36,138 nucleotides of DNA. It comes from Nitrososphaerales archaeon. Its GTDB lineage: Archaea; Thermoproteota; Nitrososphaeria; Nitrososphaerales; Gagatemarchaeaceae. The translations under genes were made by a program, and so were the position numbers. The first letter of the stretch is position 1; each line of letters opens with the position of its first letter. The notes under the pieces are model-generated. The model was not told the origin of the DNA and did no database searches. It was given only the letters and a program-made list of their open reading frames with translations. The stretch lies in NCBI GenBank assembly GCA_014874415.1, contig JACWAI010000092.1:1-36138 (forward strand), in the 5' to 3' direction. This document shows positions 1,174 through 6,882 of this stretch, piece by piece.

Positions 1174-2769
1174 CTAGGCGAGGTCCATGGCCATGTAGGG
1201 ACCGGCCCTCTCATACCCCAGCTTCCTGTAATAGTTCCTCGTGCCTACTGCGCTTGTCACGAGCAGCCTCCTCGCCCCGAACTCTTCCCTGGCGGCCTTC
1301 TCCATCCTCCGCATCAGTGAGGCTCCCATGCCTCGGTGTTGCCAGGCCGTCCCTTCTCTGCGGCCGACCCTCAGAGCCTGCCCGTAGACCCTCAGCTCCC
1401 TGACGACTGCGGCCCCGTTTACTTCGGCCCTGTGCGCCGCGGGCGATGGGACGCGGAGCCTCACAAAGGCAGCGATGAGCCCCGAGCGCCTGAACTCGTA
1501 GGACCCGAAGACCTCGTCCCCGCCGGAGGCTCTGTATCTCGACTCCAGGTAGCTCAGCTCATCATCCTGGGAAAGGGCGTCTGGCTCCCTGAGGACGACC
1601 TCTCTGCACCTTATGCAACCGCACCCCCACCCCTTTTCTTTCGCTCTCTGAAGGACGAGCTGCCTCAGGTTGCCGTCGCGGACGCCGCCTTCGATCTCGC
1701 GGGCAGGGATCTCCCTCTGTATCCGCATGATCCTGTGCCATGACGGGACGGACTTCTTCATGTCGCTCAGCAGGTCGACCACGGTATCTGTGCTGTAGGG
1801 TTCGTAGCGTCCTGACTCGTACTGGCGCGCCAGGGAGGTCCCGGGGACGACCAGGGTCGGATAGAGCTTCGACATGTCTGGCCTGAACGCCTCGTCCTCG
1901 AAGAGCCGCTTCAGGTCTTCGAGGTCCTCCGTCGGAGTCGCCCCTGGAAGCCCGGGCATCATGTGGGCCGTCACCTTCAGCCCCGCGTCCCTTGCCACCT
2001 GGAAGGCTCTTGCCGAATCCGCCACCGTATGCCCCCTGTTGCTCTTGGCGAGGGTTTCGTCGCGGAGGCTCTGCACGCCGATCTCCAGCCTTGTTATCCC
2101 GTACGAAAGCATCAGGTCTATGTCGGCAGGACGGCACCAGTCTGGCTTTGACTCCAGGGTCAACCCGACGCACCTGCTCGGGGCCGACTCGTTGAAGGTC
2201 TGCGCCTCGTCCAGAGTTGCGGAGACCACTCCGTTGAGCCCGTCGTAGACCCCTTTGACGAATCCTGACTGGTAGTCCCTCGACACAGCTATGAAGGTGC
2301 CCCCCTCGATTATCGTCTCCACCTTTCCGACTTCATGTCCGTTCGCCCTGTACTTCGCCAGGCATTTCGTCACCTGCCCATAGGGGTCGAACTTTGACTC
2401 GAGGGCTGACCTCATCCCCGGGCTCTGCGGGAGATACGACTGTGGTGTGCCAACCTTAGGGCCGCCCGGGCAGAAGACGCATGTCCCGTGCGGGCAGGAG
2501 AAGGGGGCGGAGAAGGCGGTTACGACAACAATCCCCGACGCGCTCCTTCGAGGGTGGACCCGGAGCATGCCCTCGAACCTTGGCCTTGCTTCTTCGGATA
2601 GCGCGGAGAGTATCTCCGAGGTAGTTACGTATCTGTCAAGGGAGAATTCGGAAGCGGCCCTCTTCTTCAGCTTCTCGAGTTGTTCCCGGGAACCTACCTT
2701 CCCCTGGGAGACCTGTTGGGCGATATGGGCGGCCGCGGCCCGTACCCCTTCGATGGCTTGTTCTGTCAC
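1174..2769 (-). CDS. elp3: Elp3-like tRNA U34 carboxymethyltransferase (radical SAM + GNAT)
   Basis: Elp3 uses a radical-SAM Fe-S cluster and acetyl-CoA to modify the wobble uridine of tRNAs (family knowledge). The 531-residue product has the expected order. A basic N-terminal tRNA-binding region is followed by the cluster motif CPHGTCVFC with C92, C97 and C100. A radical-SAM barrel with LTLESKPDW and GVQSL segments comes next, then a cysteine-rich linker (CGCIRC). The C-terminal GNAT domain carries the acetyl-CoA loop QHRGMGASLM and the ending NYYRKLGYERAGPYM. The start is GTG at 2769. Its G-T-G-A overlaps the rps30e stop codon, so the two genes are probably translationally coupled. Length and domains are complete. 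Confidence 0.95.
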   Translation of the reverse strand: MTEQAIEGVRAAAAHIAQQVSQGKVGSREQLEKLKKRAASEFSLDRYVTTSEILSALSEEARPRFEGMLRVHPRRSASGIVVVTAFSAPFSCPHGTCVFCPGGPKVGTPQSYLPQSPGMRSALESKFDPYGQVTKCLAKYRANGHEVGKVETIIEGGTFIAVSRDYQSGFVKGVYDGLNGVVSATLDEAQTFNESAPSRCVGLTLESKPDWCRPADIDLMLSYGITRLEIGVQSLRDETLAKSNRGHTVADSARAFQVARDAGLKVTAHMMPGLPGATPTEDLEDLKRLFEDEAFRPDMSKLYPTLVVPGTSLARQYESGRYEPYSTDTVVDLLSDMKKSVPSWHRIMRIQREIPAREIEGGVRDGNLRQLVLQRAKEKGWGCGCIRCREVVLREPDALSQDDELSYLESRYRASGGDEVFGSYEFRRSGLIAAFVRLRVPSPAAHRAEVNGAAVVRELRVYGQALRVGRREGTAWQHRGMGASLMRRMEKAAREEFGARRLLVTSAVGTRNYYRKLGYERAGPYMAMDLA

Positions 2770-2984
2770 CGGCGCATCCAGTTCTGGCCTGGCTTGCGCT
2801 TCAGAGTAAAGCGTTTCTCGTAGGTCCGCTTGTTCCTGACCTTAGGGATCTTGCTCGCTTTTGGCTTCGCTTCTAACTTTGGAGTCTGAGATCTGACTTA
2901 AGGGCTCTCTTCGAGAGTTTCCCTGCCTTGGTGATTGAAGGCAGCCAGTAATGAGCTGAGCTGCTGACTTCCGTGTGTCGGCAA
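2766..2984 (-). CDS. rps30e: Ribosomal protein S30e, gene split by two BHB introns
   Basis: S30e is a small basic protein of the archaeal/eukaryotic 30S subunit. No single frame encodes it here. Exon 1 (2984-2966) starts at TTG and reads MPTHGS plus one base. Exon 2 (2934-2919) completes LTKAGK. Exon 3 (2898-2766) continues VRSQTPKLEAKPK and ends in the lysine/arginine-rich tail QNWMRR. Removing 31 and 20 nt leaves 168 nt, that is 55 codons plus TGA, matching the family's MPTHGSLTKAGKVRSQTPK start and usual length. Unspliced, frame 1 stops at the TAA in intron 2. A strong GGAGGT lies 11 nt before the TTG, with a TATA-like box further up. The stop overlaps elp3. A frameshifted pseudogene is unlikely because both gaps fold as BHB motifs. 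Confidence 0.9.
2899..2918 (-). other. BHB mini-intron 2 of rps30e (20 nt)
   Basis: The central helix is AGGG (2924-2921) with CCCT (2904-2901). The bulges are AAA (2920-2918) and TAA (2900-2898). The inner stem is CTCTC (2917-2913) with GAGAG (2909-2905), closed by a GAA loop. Outside, GGC (2927-2925) pairs with GTC (2897-2895), with one G-U pair. This is a complete hBHBh' structure. Cutting after the second base of each bulge gives GGG AAA GTC, restoring A-G-K-V-R-S. It is extremely short and contains an in-frame stop. Confidence 0.92.
2935..2965 (-). other. BHB mini-intron 1 of rps30e (31 nt)
   Basis: Exon bases GAAG (2971-2968) pair with intron bases CTTC (2940-2937) as the 4-bp central helix. 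The 5' bulge is TCA (2967-2965) and the 3' bulge AAT (2936-2934). An inner stem GCAGC (2964-2960) pairs with GCTGC (2945-2941). Cutting after the second base of each bulge joins GGA AGT C to TC ACC and restores G-S-L-T-K, the family consensus. The outer helix is weak: only one good pair is next to the bulge, so it is a relaxed form of the motif. Confidence 0.88.
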
Positions 2985-4418: not shown

Positions 4419-5068
4419 AAAACCTCCTCAGAGAGGAGAAGAACGGGCGGACTGCCCTCCTGACAAGGAACCTGGTCCCCGGGAAGCGCGTCTACAACGA
4501 AGACCTCCTCCTGCGGGATGGAGTGGAGTACAGGACCTGGGACCCGTTCAGGAGCAAGCTGGCAGCCGCCATCATAAAGGGACTCCCCGAAGGGACGATC
4601 GGGGTAGGGAGCCGGGTGCTGTATCTTGGGGCTTCGACCGGGACGACAGCGTCACACGTCTCCGACCTCGTAGGGCCCAGCGGGATGGTGATTGGAGTGG
4701 AGTTCGCGCCGAGGGTCGCGCGGGAGTTCGTAGAGAACGTCGCCCGGGTGAGGGGCAACGTCGTGCCCTTCGTGGCGGACGCCAGGGACCCTTCGAAGTA
4801 CTCGGTGACAGAGGTGGACGTAGTCTACTGCGACATCGCCCAGCCGGACCAGACCGAGATCGCCATTGCCAACTGCAGGAGGCTCCTGAAGAAGGGGGGG
4901 ACCCTGATTCTTGTCGTAAAGGCGAGGAGCATTGACGTTCTAAAAGATCCAGGAGTGGTTTTTGCCGAGGAGCGCAAGAAGCTGGAGGGTGCCGGTTTCA
5001 AGGTCCGCTCGGTAATTGAGCTTAGTCCATTCGAAAAAGATCATGCGCTGGTCTATTCGACTATCTAG
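4415..5068 (+). CDS. flpA: Fibrillarin-like rRNA/tRNA 2'-O-methyltransferase
   Basis: This is the SAM-dependent methyltransferase of the box C/D sRNP. The 217-residue protein starts at the ATG overlapping the nop5 stop, which removes a spurious upstream extension. It contains the family entry segment YRTWDPFRSKLAAAI (about 39-53), the SAM loop LYLGASTGTTASHVSDLVG (about 69-87), the acidic strand IGVEFAPR, and the YCDIAQPDQTEI motif (about 132-143). The C-terminal region KARSIDV to LSPFEKDHALV is complete. Its stop TAG shares the CTAG palindrome at 5065-5068 with the converging rnhB stop. The operon with nop5 is the usual archaeal arrangement. Confidence 0.96.
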   Translation: MKNLLREEKNGRTALLTRNLVPGKRVYNEDLLLRDGVEYRTWDPFRSKLAAAIIKGLPEGTIGVGSRVLYLGASTGTTASHVSDLVGPSGMVIGVEFAPRVAREFVENVARVRGNVVPFVADARDPSKYSVTEVDVVYCDIAQPDQTEIAIANCRRLLKKGGTLILVVKARSIDVLKDPGVVFAEERKKLEGAGFKVRSVIELSPFEKDHALVYSTI

Positions 5069-5741
5069 AAAGAGTCGATCAGCGTCTGCTCGATAGCAGG
5101 CCAGGTCTTCCAGCTCTTCCTCACGTACTCAGGGAGGGGCTCTCCCCTCTTCATCCGCTCCGTGAAGAACGACCTCGTGAGGCGGTCAGACGGATACCCG
5201 GACCCGAAGTCGCCGTGCGAACCCCTGAGGAGCTCGACCGCCCTGTCCCTCTCCACCTTCGCGATTATCGAAGCGGCGGAGACCACAGGGTAATCCCTGT
5301 CTGCCTTGTGGAACGCAGAGACCTTGCTTTTCGTCCGCATGTTGTCCACTATGTCATCCCTGAACCTCTTCGGTATGACGTCGGAGGCGTCCACGGTGAC
5401 CTTCCTGGCGCCGAGCTGGTCGACTACCCTGGCGAAGTACACGGCTTCGAGGTAGTTGAGCTTCCTGAGCCTCCTGCCTGTAGTGACTACCTCGTCGATT
5501 TCTTCGGGAGAGATGCTCACCCAATAGGCTCTGTCAGCCAACTTCAGTATCCCAGGATAGAGAGAATCGCGCTGTTTCGCAGAGAGCCTCTTGGAATCTT
5601 TGACTCCAAGATTCCTTAGTCTTCTTATCTTGCTTGGTTCGATAGATATCCCAGCGATTACGAGTGGTCCGAGAAGACAACCTGATGGGGAGCAGAAGGG
5701 ACCTCCTGCTCACTCCCAGCTTCGTCGACGCCACCTACCAG
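5065..5741 (-). CDS. rnhB: Ribonuclease HII, gene interrupted by a 29-nt BHB intron
   Basis: RNase HII cleaves the RNA strand of RNA/DNA hybrids at embedded ribonucleotides. A continuous frame gives only the C-terminal 158 residues, without the catalytic N-terminus. Reading upstream and removing bases 5712-5684 restores VGGVDEAGRGCLLGPLVIAG followed by LGVKDSKRLS. The spliced product has 215 residues, the normal length, with the acidic set D6, E7, D108 and D138, and the HKADRDYPVVSAASIIAK block. The frame has no ATG, GTG or TTG before this motif. CTG at 5741 gives M-V-G-G, two bases after the stop of the LAGLIDADG gene. One extra A in the A6 run at 5747-5752 would instead give M-K-K-I-R-L-V-G-G from a GTG. 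Its stop shares CTAG with flpA. Confidence 0.9.
5684..5712 (-). other. BHB mini-intron of rnhB (29 nt) in the DEAGRG catalytic motif
   Basis: The central helix is TGGG (5718-5715) with CCCA (5689-5686). The bulges are AGT (5714-5712) and TCA (5685-5683). The inner stem GAGCAG (5711-5706) pairs perfectly with CTGCTC (5695-5690) across a 10-nt loop. The flanks GACGAAGC and GGTTGTC give an outer helix with one mismatch and one bulged base. Cutting after the second base of each bulge joins GGG AG to A GGT and restores A-G-R-G-C. The intron shifts frame and splits the arginine codon of the most conserved motif. Confidence 0.95.
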
Positions 5742-5743
5742 TC

Positions 5744-6760
5744 TTATTTTTTCACCACCTTGCTAGGCGTTGGAACCCTATACCAATTATGCTTTCTCCG
5801 AGTCACCAGGCCCAAACCTTCAAGCTCATGAAGCCGTCGCAATACACTCTTCGCGTTTCTCTCAAGCACGCGGGCCAGTTCAAATGCGCGATGCTTCTCA
5901 GCGAGTAAGCAGAGTATTTTCTCTTTCTGCCTGGAGATTACGATGATCGAGTCGGTCCTGACCCAGTAACACCTGGAATTGACGTGATACATCAGGATGT
6001 TGCCTGAGGACTTGAGGTCTAATAGCACCTGATGTAGACGCGAAATAGAACGCTTGTACTCGGAAGCGAGCTCTGCACTTGTTCGAGGAATGGCTAAGTT
6101 GGAAAGAACGAGCCTGCGAAGGGTGAAGTTCGAAAAGTGGTTCTGACGATAACTCGACATCATTTTCAAGAAACGTTCATGCTTAGCTCGGTGTAGAACA
6201 GTCAGTTCGAGCGAGTGAAACTTGGCGAGGTTGTATCGGCCAGTGATGGAATATTCCCGATGCCCGCCATAGACGAATGAGATTCTGAAATGGTGCAGCA
6301 TTTTTTCCAGCAAACGATTGGGTCTGCCCTGGGCTATCCTGACAGCTCGAGAGTAGTGCAGCCCGGTTTTCACGTTCCCCTCGCCAGCAAAGAAACCCTG
6401 CAATATGGACTGGTAGTTTGTCGCTATCCTGCAAGTGCCGCGGACTAGTTTGCGCCATTCCTTTACTACGTGTACTCCTGAAAGGCGATAGATGTGGTAG
6501 GGAAAGTTCGCTCTCCTATCGATGTAGACTCGATAGCGCGCCGAGGCCACCGGATGAGCGTAGGGCGAATCTTTCCTTGGAAGATAGACTGCGATACGAG
6601 GAGTATTAGATGCAACTAGGTTCTCTTGAATGACCTCATGAAACAATTCAATCAAGTAGGGCTGATTGTTGGTGAAAGTAACCTCCATACGTGTAACCTT
6701 GTCTCCTTCGGCAAGCCAGAGCCCTACGACCTGGCCAAGTCGTCCAGTACGACCGTTCAC
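5744..6760 (-). CDS. LAGLIDADG-type homing endonuclease-like protein with C-terminal winged helices
   Basis: The 338-residue product starts at GTG 6760. Residues about 8-19 (LGQVVGLWLAEG) match the LAGLIDADG helix with its acidic catalytic residue. A second, less exact copy is likely near LQGFFAGEGNVK (about 138-149), as in single-chain two-motif enzymes. The C-terminal third carries two helix-turn-helix/winged-helix segments (about 215-265 and 280-330, the latter with HRAFELARVLERNAKSVLRR). Base composition is visibly less GC-rich than the neighbouring genes, consistent with acquisition. It overlaps the upstream 41-codon ORF and sits 2 nt before rnhB, whose own intron lacks an ORF. A function in intron mobility is inference, and a regulatory role is possible. 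Confidence 0.75.
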   Translation of the reverse strand: MNGRTGRLGQVVGLWLAEGDKVTRMEVTFTNNQPYLIELFHEVIQENLVASNTPRIAVYLPRKDSPYAHPVASARYRVYIDRRANFPYHIYRLSGVHVVKEWRKLVRGTCRIATNYQSILQGFFAGEGNVKTGLHYSRAVRIAQGRPNRLLEKMLHHFRISFVYGGHREYSITGRYNLAKFHSLELTVLHRAKHERFLKMMSSYRQNHFSNFTLRRLVLSNLAIPRTSAELASEYKRSISRLHQVLLDLKSSGNILMYHVNSRCYWVRTDSIIVISRQKEKILCLLAEKHRAFELARVLERNAKSVLRRLHELEGLGLVTRRKHNWYRVPTPSKVVKK

Positions 6761-6882
6761 ATATTAGTACGGTATGTGTGCTTAAGAGAACCAAGGTTCA
6801 GATTGGATTCGTTCAGGAATGCGAGTTCTGGAACATACAGGCCACCAGAGGCTAGCGCTGACACTAGGAGGTTCATGCTCAT
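6757..6882 (-). CDS. Possible 41-residue coupled ORF between thep1 and the LAGLIDADG gene
   Basis: An ATG overlapping the thep1 stop (ATGA at 6882-6879) opens a frame that ends in TGA, overlapping the GTG start of the LAGLIDADG gene. The peptide begins MSMNLLVSALASGGLYVPEL and has a hydrophobic first half. I do not recognise it. The tight overlaps at both ends suggest translation. It could be a free peptide, or an N-terminal part of the LAGLIDADG protein separated by a frameshift. The evidence is positional only. Confidence 0.35.
   Translation of the reverse strand: MSMNLLVSALASGGLYVPELAFLNESNLNLGSLKHTYRTNM

Follow-up and report, generated by a model that had tools for sequence, protein, structure and literature searches.

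The window, the whole 36,138-nt stretch of DNA that was analysed, contains a gene for ribosomal protein S30e whose coding sequence is divided into three pieces, followed directly by a gene for an Elp3-like protein. The first-pass annotation had described gaps of 31 and 20 nt between the S30e pieces and had attributed them to two BHB introns. The pieces and both gaps lay where they had been placed, as follows:

2966..2984, minus strand: S30e exon 1 (19 nt), TTG start, encoding LPTHGS and the first base of the following codon
2935..2965, minus strand: intron A (31 nt), between S30e exons 1 and 2
2919..2934, minus strand: S30e exon 2 (16 nt)
2899..2918, minus strand: intron B (20 nt), between S30e exons 2 and 3
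2766..2898, minus strand: S30e exon 3 (133 nt), stop TGA at 2768-2766
1174..2769, minus strand: Elp3-like gene (radical SAM + GNAT), GTG start overlapping the S30e stop (GTGA)

Excision of the 31 nt from 2965 to 2935 and of the 20 nt from 2918 to 2899 gave a coding sequence of 168 nt with a TTG start (LPTHGSLTKAGKVRSQTPK...NWMRR, then the stop) and a complete S30e of 55 amino acids, so that the two introns are only 16 nt apart, the length of exon 2, as had been claimed. A brute-force scan of deletion pairs, within limited ranges of place and length, returned three solutions, all of which placed the 31-nt intron A identically and differed only in a one-base slide, either way, of the 20-nt intron B. 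The spliced protein scored 47.7 bits against Pfam PF04758 (cut-off 27), and the cuts that had been proposed thus do restore a normal protein. The unspliced frame at the locus reached a stop after 28 amino acids, and PF04758 had no match at E ≤ 0.001 in the unspliced genome, an example of how S30e is missed or truncated by single-frame gene callers. A protein search of the same genome, whose assembly is 91.6% complete, had this locus as its single match; no second intact S30e gene was found.

Both gaps folded with the 4-bp central helices, two 3-nt bulges each and internal stems that had been described:

2971-2968 (GAAG) and 2940-2937 (CTTC), minus strand: central helix of the intron A BHB, with bulges TCA (2967-2965) and AAT (2936-2934)
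intron A, minus strand: inner stem GCAGC/GCTGC and an outer helix of 1 bp
2924-2921 (AGGG) and 2904-2901 (CCCT), minus strand: central helix of the intron B BHB, with bulges AAA (2920-2918) and TAA (2900-2898)
2927-2925 (GGC) and 2897-2895 (GTC), minus strand: outer helix of intron B, with inner stem CTCTC/GAGAG

The outer helix of intron A, noted as weak in the first-pass annotation, was a single base pair in every solution found. The minimum-energy fold of 2990-2881 contained both hairpins, with a fold energy that was not exceptional (z -1.7; 9 of 200 shuffles were at least as good). To count as strict, a BHB needed a 4-bp central helix flanked by two 3-nt bulges, with four or more pairs in the inner helix. 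When the intron letters at the locus were shuffled with the exons held fixed, this structure arose in 9 of 20,000 cases for intron A and 4 of 20,000 for intron B, and across the whole set of A and B introns in 0-21 per 20,000. It was present in 13 of the 14 distinct A introns and in all 12 distinct B introns. The inner helix was uninterrupted for at least 4 bp in the same proportions (13/14 and 12/12), and central-helix pairing reached 100% in the aligned family sequences of either intron. The strict test failed for intron A of G020, where the inner stem requires two bulged bases.

The search for S30e covered 61 genomes and gave a match in 45, namely in 24 of the 37 from the window's own Nitrososphaerota family, which is known from metagenomes, and in 21 of the 24 that represent other families of the order. 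Two further MAGs, TA_13 and TA_14, brought the family set to 26 genes, and 24 of these were frame-broken. Six had both introns (G000, G020, G024, G031, TA13, TA14), ten had intron A only (G010, G013, G015, G016, G017, G022, G026, G033, G034, G036), eight had intron B only (G002, G003, G004, G006, G009, G023, G025, G029) and two had no intron (G005, G027). In all 24 intron-bearing genes the unspliced frames stopped early, after 18-38 codons, and splicing at the same sites restored an S30e of 54-55 amino acids. A separate automated restoration did not succeed for G020 (L017/L032), the intron-free L060 and L061 (variant residues) and the Asgard L049 and L051. The introns thus recurred at the same two sites in separate assemblies, intron A with a length of 31-32 nt and once 46 nt, intron B with 19-20 nt. 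The 46-nt intron A of TA_14 (L044) has its extra letters, a CGT-like repeat, in the loop, and its stem is intact. In the 21 matching genomes from other families of the order, S30e was uninterrupted, with a single frame running from residue 1 or 2. When the search was extended to the class, 234 of 250 genomes had an S30e match; outside the family, among the matches listed, each began at residue 1-3 and contained no stops. The intron-less versions that had been suggested as a check therefore exist, both within the family (G005, G027) and in all matches listed outside it. There was no S30e match in 13 of the 37 family genomes, 12 of which also had no Elp3 match, and in the thirteenth (G001) Elp3 begins at a contig end; the S30e locus thus seems not to have been assembled in these 13 genomes. 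Some rows are near-duplicates (G004 equals G006 in Elp3; also G013/G016 and G031/TA13), so the genome counts exceed the number of independent events. The S30e introns are a family-wide feature, and each of them can stand alone.

The helices stay paired while their letters change. For intron B, the 12 distinct introns with their flanks were compared over 11 pairs that make up the outer, central and inner helices, and each of the 132 cells was a standard pair; 24 cells had changes on both sides, and double changes affected 6 of the 11 pairs. The covariation score was 0.566, compared with a shuffled mean of 0.197, and none of 500 shuffles was as high, while sliding the partners reduced pairing to 31-58%. 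Among the five covariation measures there was one, the count of further pair types, that did not rise above the shuffles (257 of 500 as high). The intron A alignment consisted of 13 of the 14 distinct introns, the 46-nt TA14 intron being left out, and 94.1% of cells were paired, with double changes in 13 cells and 5 of 13 pairs. Its score was 0.244 against 0.091 for the shuffles (0/500 as high), and its innermost pair was unpaired in 5 of the 13 sequences. In one pair of intron A, an intron base faces an exon base whose codon is either GGA or GGG, with the amino acid unchanged; of the 13 sequences, 7 had A-U at this pair and 6 had G-C. The rows include close relatives, which makes the covariation counts partly dependent on one another.

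An Elp3 tree of 25 of the 26 genomes and one outgroup (the G036 fragment was too short), in which several deep branches are unsupported, required at least four changes for intron A and at least seven for intron B. Each of the four other genera of the family with an S30e gene found (G031, G033, G034, G036) had intron A, so this intron is probably an old one in the family; it was probably lost several times. Intron B is patchy, with more changes on the tree than intron A.

The start codon of S30e was related to intron A. Among the 16 genes with intron A the start was ATG in ten and TTG in six, and all ten genes lacking it began with ACG (G002, L054; G003, L020; G004, L025; G005, L002; G006, L022; G009, L029; G023, L053; G025, L055; G027, L001; G029, L027), so that intron A and an ACG start were mutually exclusive in the 26 genes. 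G039 (L023) was noted alongside these genes. A GGAGG ended 8-12 nt 5' of the ACG in all ten, the 5' flanks also differed between genes with and without intron A, and the genomes lacking intron A did not form one clade in the Elp3 tree. A further 5' intron was considered as the origin of the ACG start and rejected: in 8 of the 10 genes no BHB splice led to an in-frame ATG, GTG or TTG, and the candidates in G009 (one) and G005 (three) joined an upstream TTG and still kept the ACG codon. The GTGA at the S30e stop was kept in 24 of the 26 genes; its overlap with the Elp3 start was read at the locus.

The genome from which the window derives has two genes with a tRNA-endonuclease domain (EndA family), one of them of catalytic type, and one RtcB gene. 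The first EndA-family protein had strong matches to archaeal splicing-endonuclease chains (E 4e-43 for 3p1z_B), with which it shared a GPGIDHAP stretch; the second gave a weaker match and lacked this stretch, from which we infer a catalytic and a structural subunit. Hetero-oligomeric EndA has been reported to cut relaxed BHB motifs (PMC2738675). In the proposed mechanism, the S30e mRNA of the family would carry one or two very small BHB introns, the two-subunit EndA would cut in both 3-nt bulges of each, RtcB, the tRNA ligase, would join the exons and the joined mRNA would be translated into the normal 55-residue S30e. To judge from the sequences, this is very probably how S30e is made, and several observations favour the two BHB introns that had been proposed: 1) relatives have an intact gene, 2) the introns recur, 3) the splice sites are fixed, 4) the helices covary and 5) EndA-family and RtcB genes are present. 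Cleavage, ligation and EndA rather than another nuclease as the cutter are presumed steps.

One alternative is that the interruptions are sequencing or assembly errors or mark a decaying pseudogene, since the draft assembly consists of 114 contigs and genes in MAGs can be broken. However, the same two sites were interrupted in 24 of 26 genes from separate assemblies, the intron lengths were nearly fixed, the exons are under protein constraint, the helices covary and the genome has no other S30e match. This explanation is extremely improbable, and error and pseudogene appear to be excluded in practice. Another is that the RNA remains unspliced and ribosomes bypass the 31 and 20 nt by translational hopping, as they do over about 50 nt in gene 60 of phage T4. 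Hairpins are present at both gaps, in favour of hopping, but bypassing requires matched take-off and landing codons, and it leaves the exon-intron covariation in the central helix unexplained. The BHB geometry, by contrast, with its 4-bp helix, two 3-nt bulges and a cut after the second base, fits both sites and predicts the junctions to the base, which makes hopping very improbable. The probability that the inserts are, or derive from, group I or group II introns is close to nil: to our knowledge, a ribozyme core cannot fit in 19-46 nt, and no Rfam family reached its gathering score anywhere in the 36,138-nt window. Such an origin could be entertained only in that group I introns do occur in archaea, including Thaumarchaeota (PMC6125680).

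The remaining possibilities accept splicing and add a function to it. Splicing might also be regulatory, such that the unspliced mRNA, with its early stops, would yield neither S30e nor translationally coupled Elp3. The overlap of the Elp3 start with the S30e stop and the retention of GTGA are consistent with this, as are the mutual exclusion of intron A and ACG starts and the finding that lowering endA in Haloferax lowered a transcript with a 5'-UTR BHB intron (PMC7714728). Two genomes, G005 and G027, nevertheless manage without any intron, and we regard a regulatory role as rather unlikely. The 5' end of S30e could also exist as two exchangeable alleles with alternative brakes, either an AUG or UUG start with intron A at codon 7, where translation would depend on splicing, or an ACG start and no intron A. 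This arrangement, suggested by the distribution of start codons, is a decidedly doubtful one; were it true, both alleles would hold back S30e and the Elp3 encoded behind it, through initiation or through RNA processing.

A third intron of the same kind was found in the window, in the gene for RNase HII:

5065..5683, minus strand: RNase HII main exon (RGCLLGPL... to the stop)
5684..5712, minus strand: RNase HII intron (29 nt), BHB in the codon after DEAG of the catalytic DEAGRG motif; central helix TGGG/CCCA, bulges AGT/TCA, inner stem of 9 bp
5713..5747, minus strand: 5' piece of RNase HII (IRLVGGVDEAG)
5744..6760, minus strand: ORF with two LAGLIDADG-like motifs, putative homing endonuclease, lying directly 5' of RNase HII

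An intron of 28 nt lay at the same place in G016 (C1 near 660950, L088). Shuffled versions passed the BHB test in 30 (locus) and 12 (G016) of 20,000 cases, and the fold energy of the intron was not exceptional (z 0.1). RNase HII read through the site in L031-L034, L039, L043-L045, G005, G009 and G024; L047, which is cut by a contig end, and L048, which breaks just before the site, were left out of the comparison. The two motifs in the upstream ORF are ones that we take to be LAGLIDADG-like. Pfam LAGLIDADG_3 was below its cut-off (E 0.012) and the AlphaFold model had a pLDDT of 34, and that the ORF encodes a homing endonuclease is weakly suggested. Such an ORF was directly upstream of RNase HII in 2 of the 31 genus genomes searched, the two that have the intron; one reading of these two cases is that the small intron was spread by a neighbouring homing endonuclease. 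Between 5713 and 5750 on the minus strand, 3' of the ORF, there was no ATG, GTG or TTG start for RNase HII. Either a rare start codon (ATA or CTG) is used, or the ORF is held in a 1.1-kb intron with the 5' exon at the THEP1 stop near 6880, where a candidate exon (ATGAGCATGAACCTCCTAGTG) would give MSMNLLV joined to GGVDEAG. Against the larger intron, its flanks had no convincing BHB by eye, and the RNase HII gene of G016, which also follows such an ORF, starts with an ATG of its own. According to a footnote in PMC7714728, the outer (exon) helix of the canonical hBHBh' motif has at least two Watson-Crick pairs. Intron B corresponds to this, with outer pairs GC/AU, GU and CG in all 12 distinct sequences; intron A and the RNase HII intron, with an outer helix of only 1 bp each, do not and would be relaxed BHB motifs.

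Conserved proteins were also scanned for other junctions restored by a strict BHB splice. Around S30e, in four 100-kb stretches, the window and 22 relative loci, the survey returned S30e A or B, RNase HII and seven other rows, which were rejected because each came from one query genome and was Arg/Pro/Gly-rich with the look of a shadow frame. The surroundings of the ribosomal-protein cluster were covered in five genomes, where conserved matches spanned 236 kb, and added a single row, backed by one query genome (G024). A simple gap scan gave 19 candidate junctions, 13 of them in S30e, two in the G024 stretch and one each in G005, L039, L041 and L045; a looser version of the survey produced very many false rows and was dropped. 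As a control, at least one S30e intron was recovered in 22 of the 24 intron-bearing sequences. The two misses, S30e in the window and S30e in G024, are both genes with two introns. The survey can thus overlook genes that have two introns or a very short first exon, motifs that are not strict and introns longer than 150 nt. This partial survey thus revealed no other credible protein-gene BHB intron in the S30e neighbourhoods or the ribosomal-protein cluster; pervasive splicing of protein genes in these genomes is unlikely, and a few more cases may exist.

Among the relatives, orthologous tRNAs occurred with or without about 15-18 extra nt. The lengths were 77 or 93 for Arg-gcg, 76 or 91-92 for Val-tac and 76 or 91-94 for Ala-tgc (L065, L078, L083, L095, L098-L101, L104, L105, L109), and two Gly-ccc tRNAs in G024 differed by 22 nt, which suggests that small tRNA introns come and go in these relatives too.

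Introns in the cbf5 pre-mRNA of Desulfurococcales and Sulfolobales were reportedly described by Watanabe in 2002. According to a 2009 paper (PMC2738675), splicing outside cbf5 was not confirmed and cbf5 introns had been misidentified or ignored; a 2020 paper (PMC7714728) gave the one in cbf5 mRNA as the only additional BHB intron reported. No report of S30e introns was found in the open-access literature, in agreement with the first-pass annotation, which knew of none. If splicing occurs as predicted, archaeal mRNA splicing would be no cbf5 oddity, since it would extend to a ribosomal-protein gene in another class, with compensatory changes family-wide. Moreover, the natural genotypes with no, one or two introns in a single 55-codon gene make intron gain, loss and cost directly testable.

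Several known systems resemble S30e in part. Archaeal tRNA introns likewise have BHB motifs processed by EndA and a ligase, and their range of 11-175 nt covers the S30e sizes (PMC2738675), whereas the S30e host is an mRNA with no tRNA fold to aid recognition. The 46-nt intron of HVO_1309 in Haloferax volcanii is also an mRNA intron cut by EndA, but it sits in the 5' UTR and leaves the coding sequence uninterrupted (PMC7714728). The putative 12-bp introns of rudivirus SIRV1 variants are tiny and lie in coding sequence, as in S30e; they keep the frame, and their splicing was not demonstrated according to PMC2738675, while the unspliced S30e frames end early. The closest parallel is cbf5 (Yokobori 2009, PMC2738675), where a BHB-type motif that EndA cuts also interrupts the protein-coding sequence. 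The cbf5 introns share with those of S30e a patchy distribution with lineage-specific loss and a short length (33, 36 and 39 bp in the examples given), and most of their predicted motifs are unconventional, as at S30e intron A. In the genome studied here, the TruB_N (Cbf5-type) match lay in one open frame without stops. The S30e and RNase HII introns may be classed as archaeal BHB mRNA introns of the cbf5 type, with predicted splicing, in new host genes. They differ from cbf5 in that the hosts are S30e and RNase HII in a different class, that intron B is only 19-20 nt long and that in S30e two introns in one mRNA surround an exon of 16 nt.
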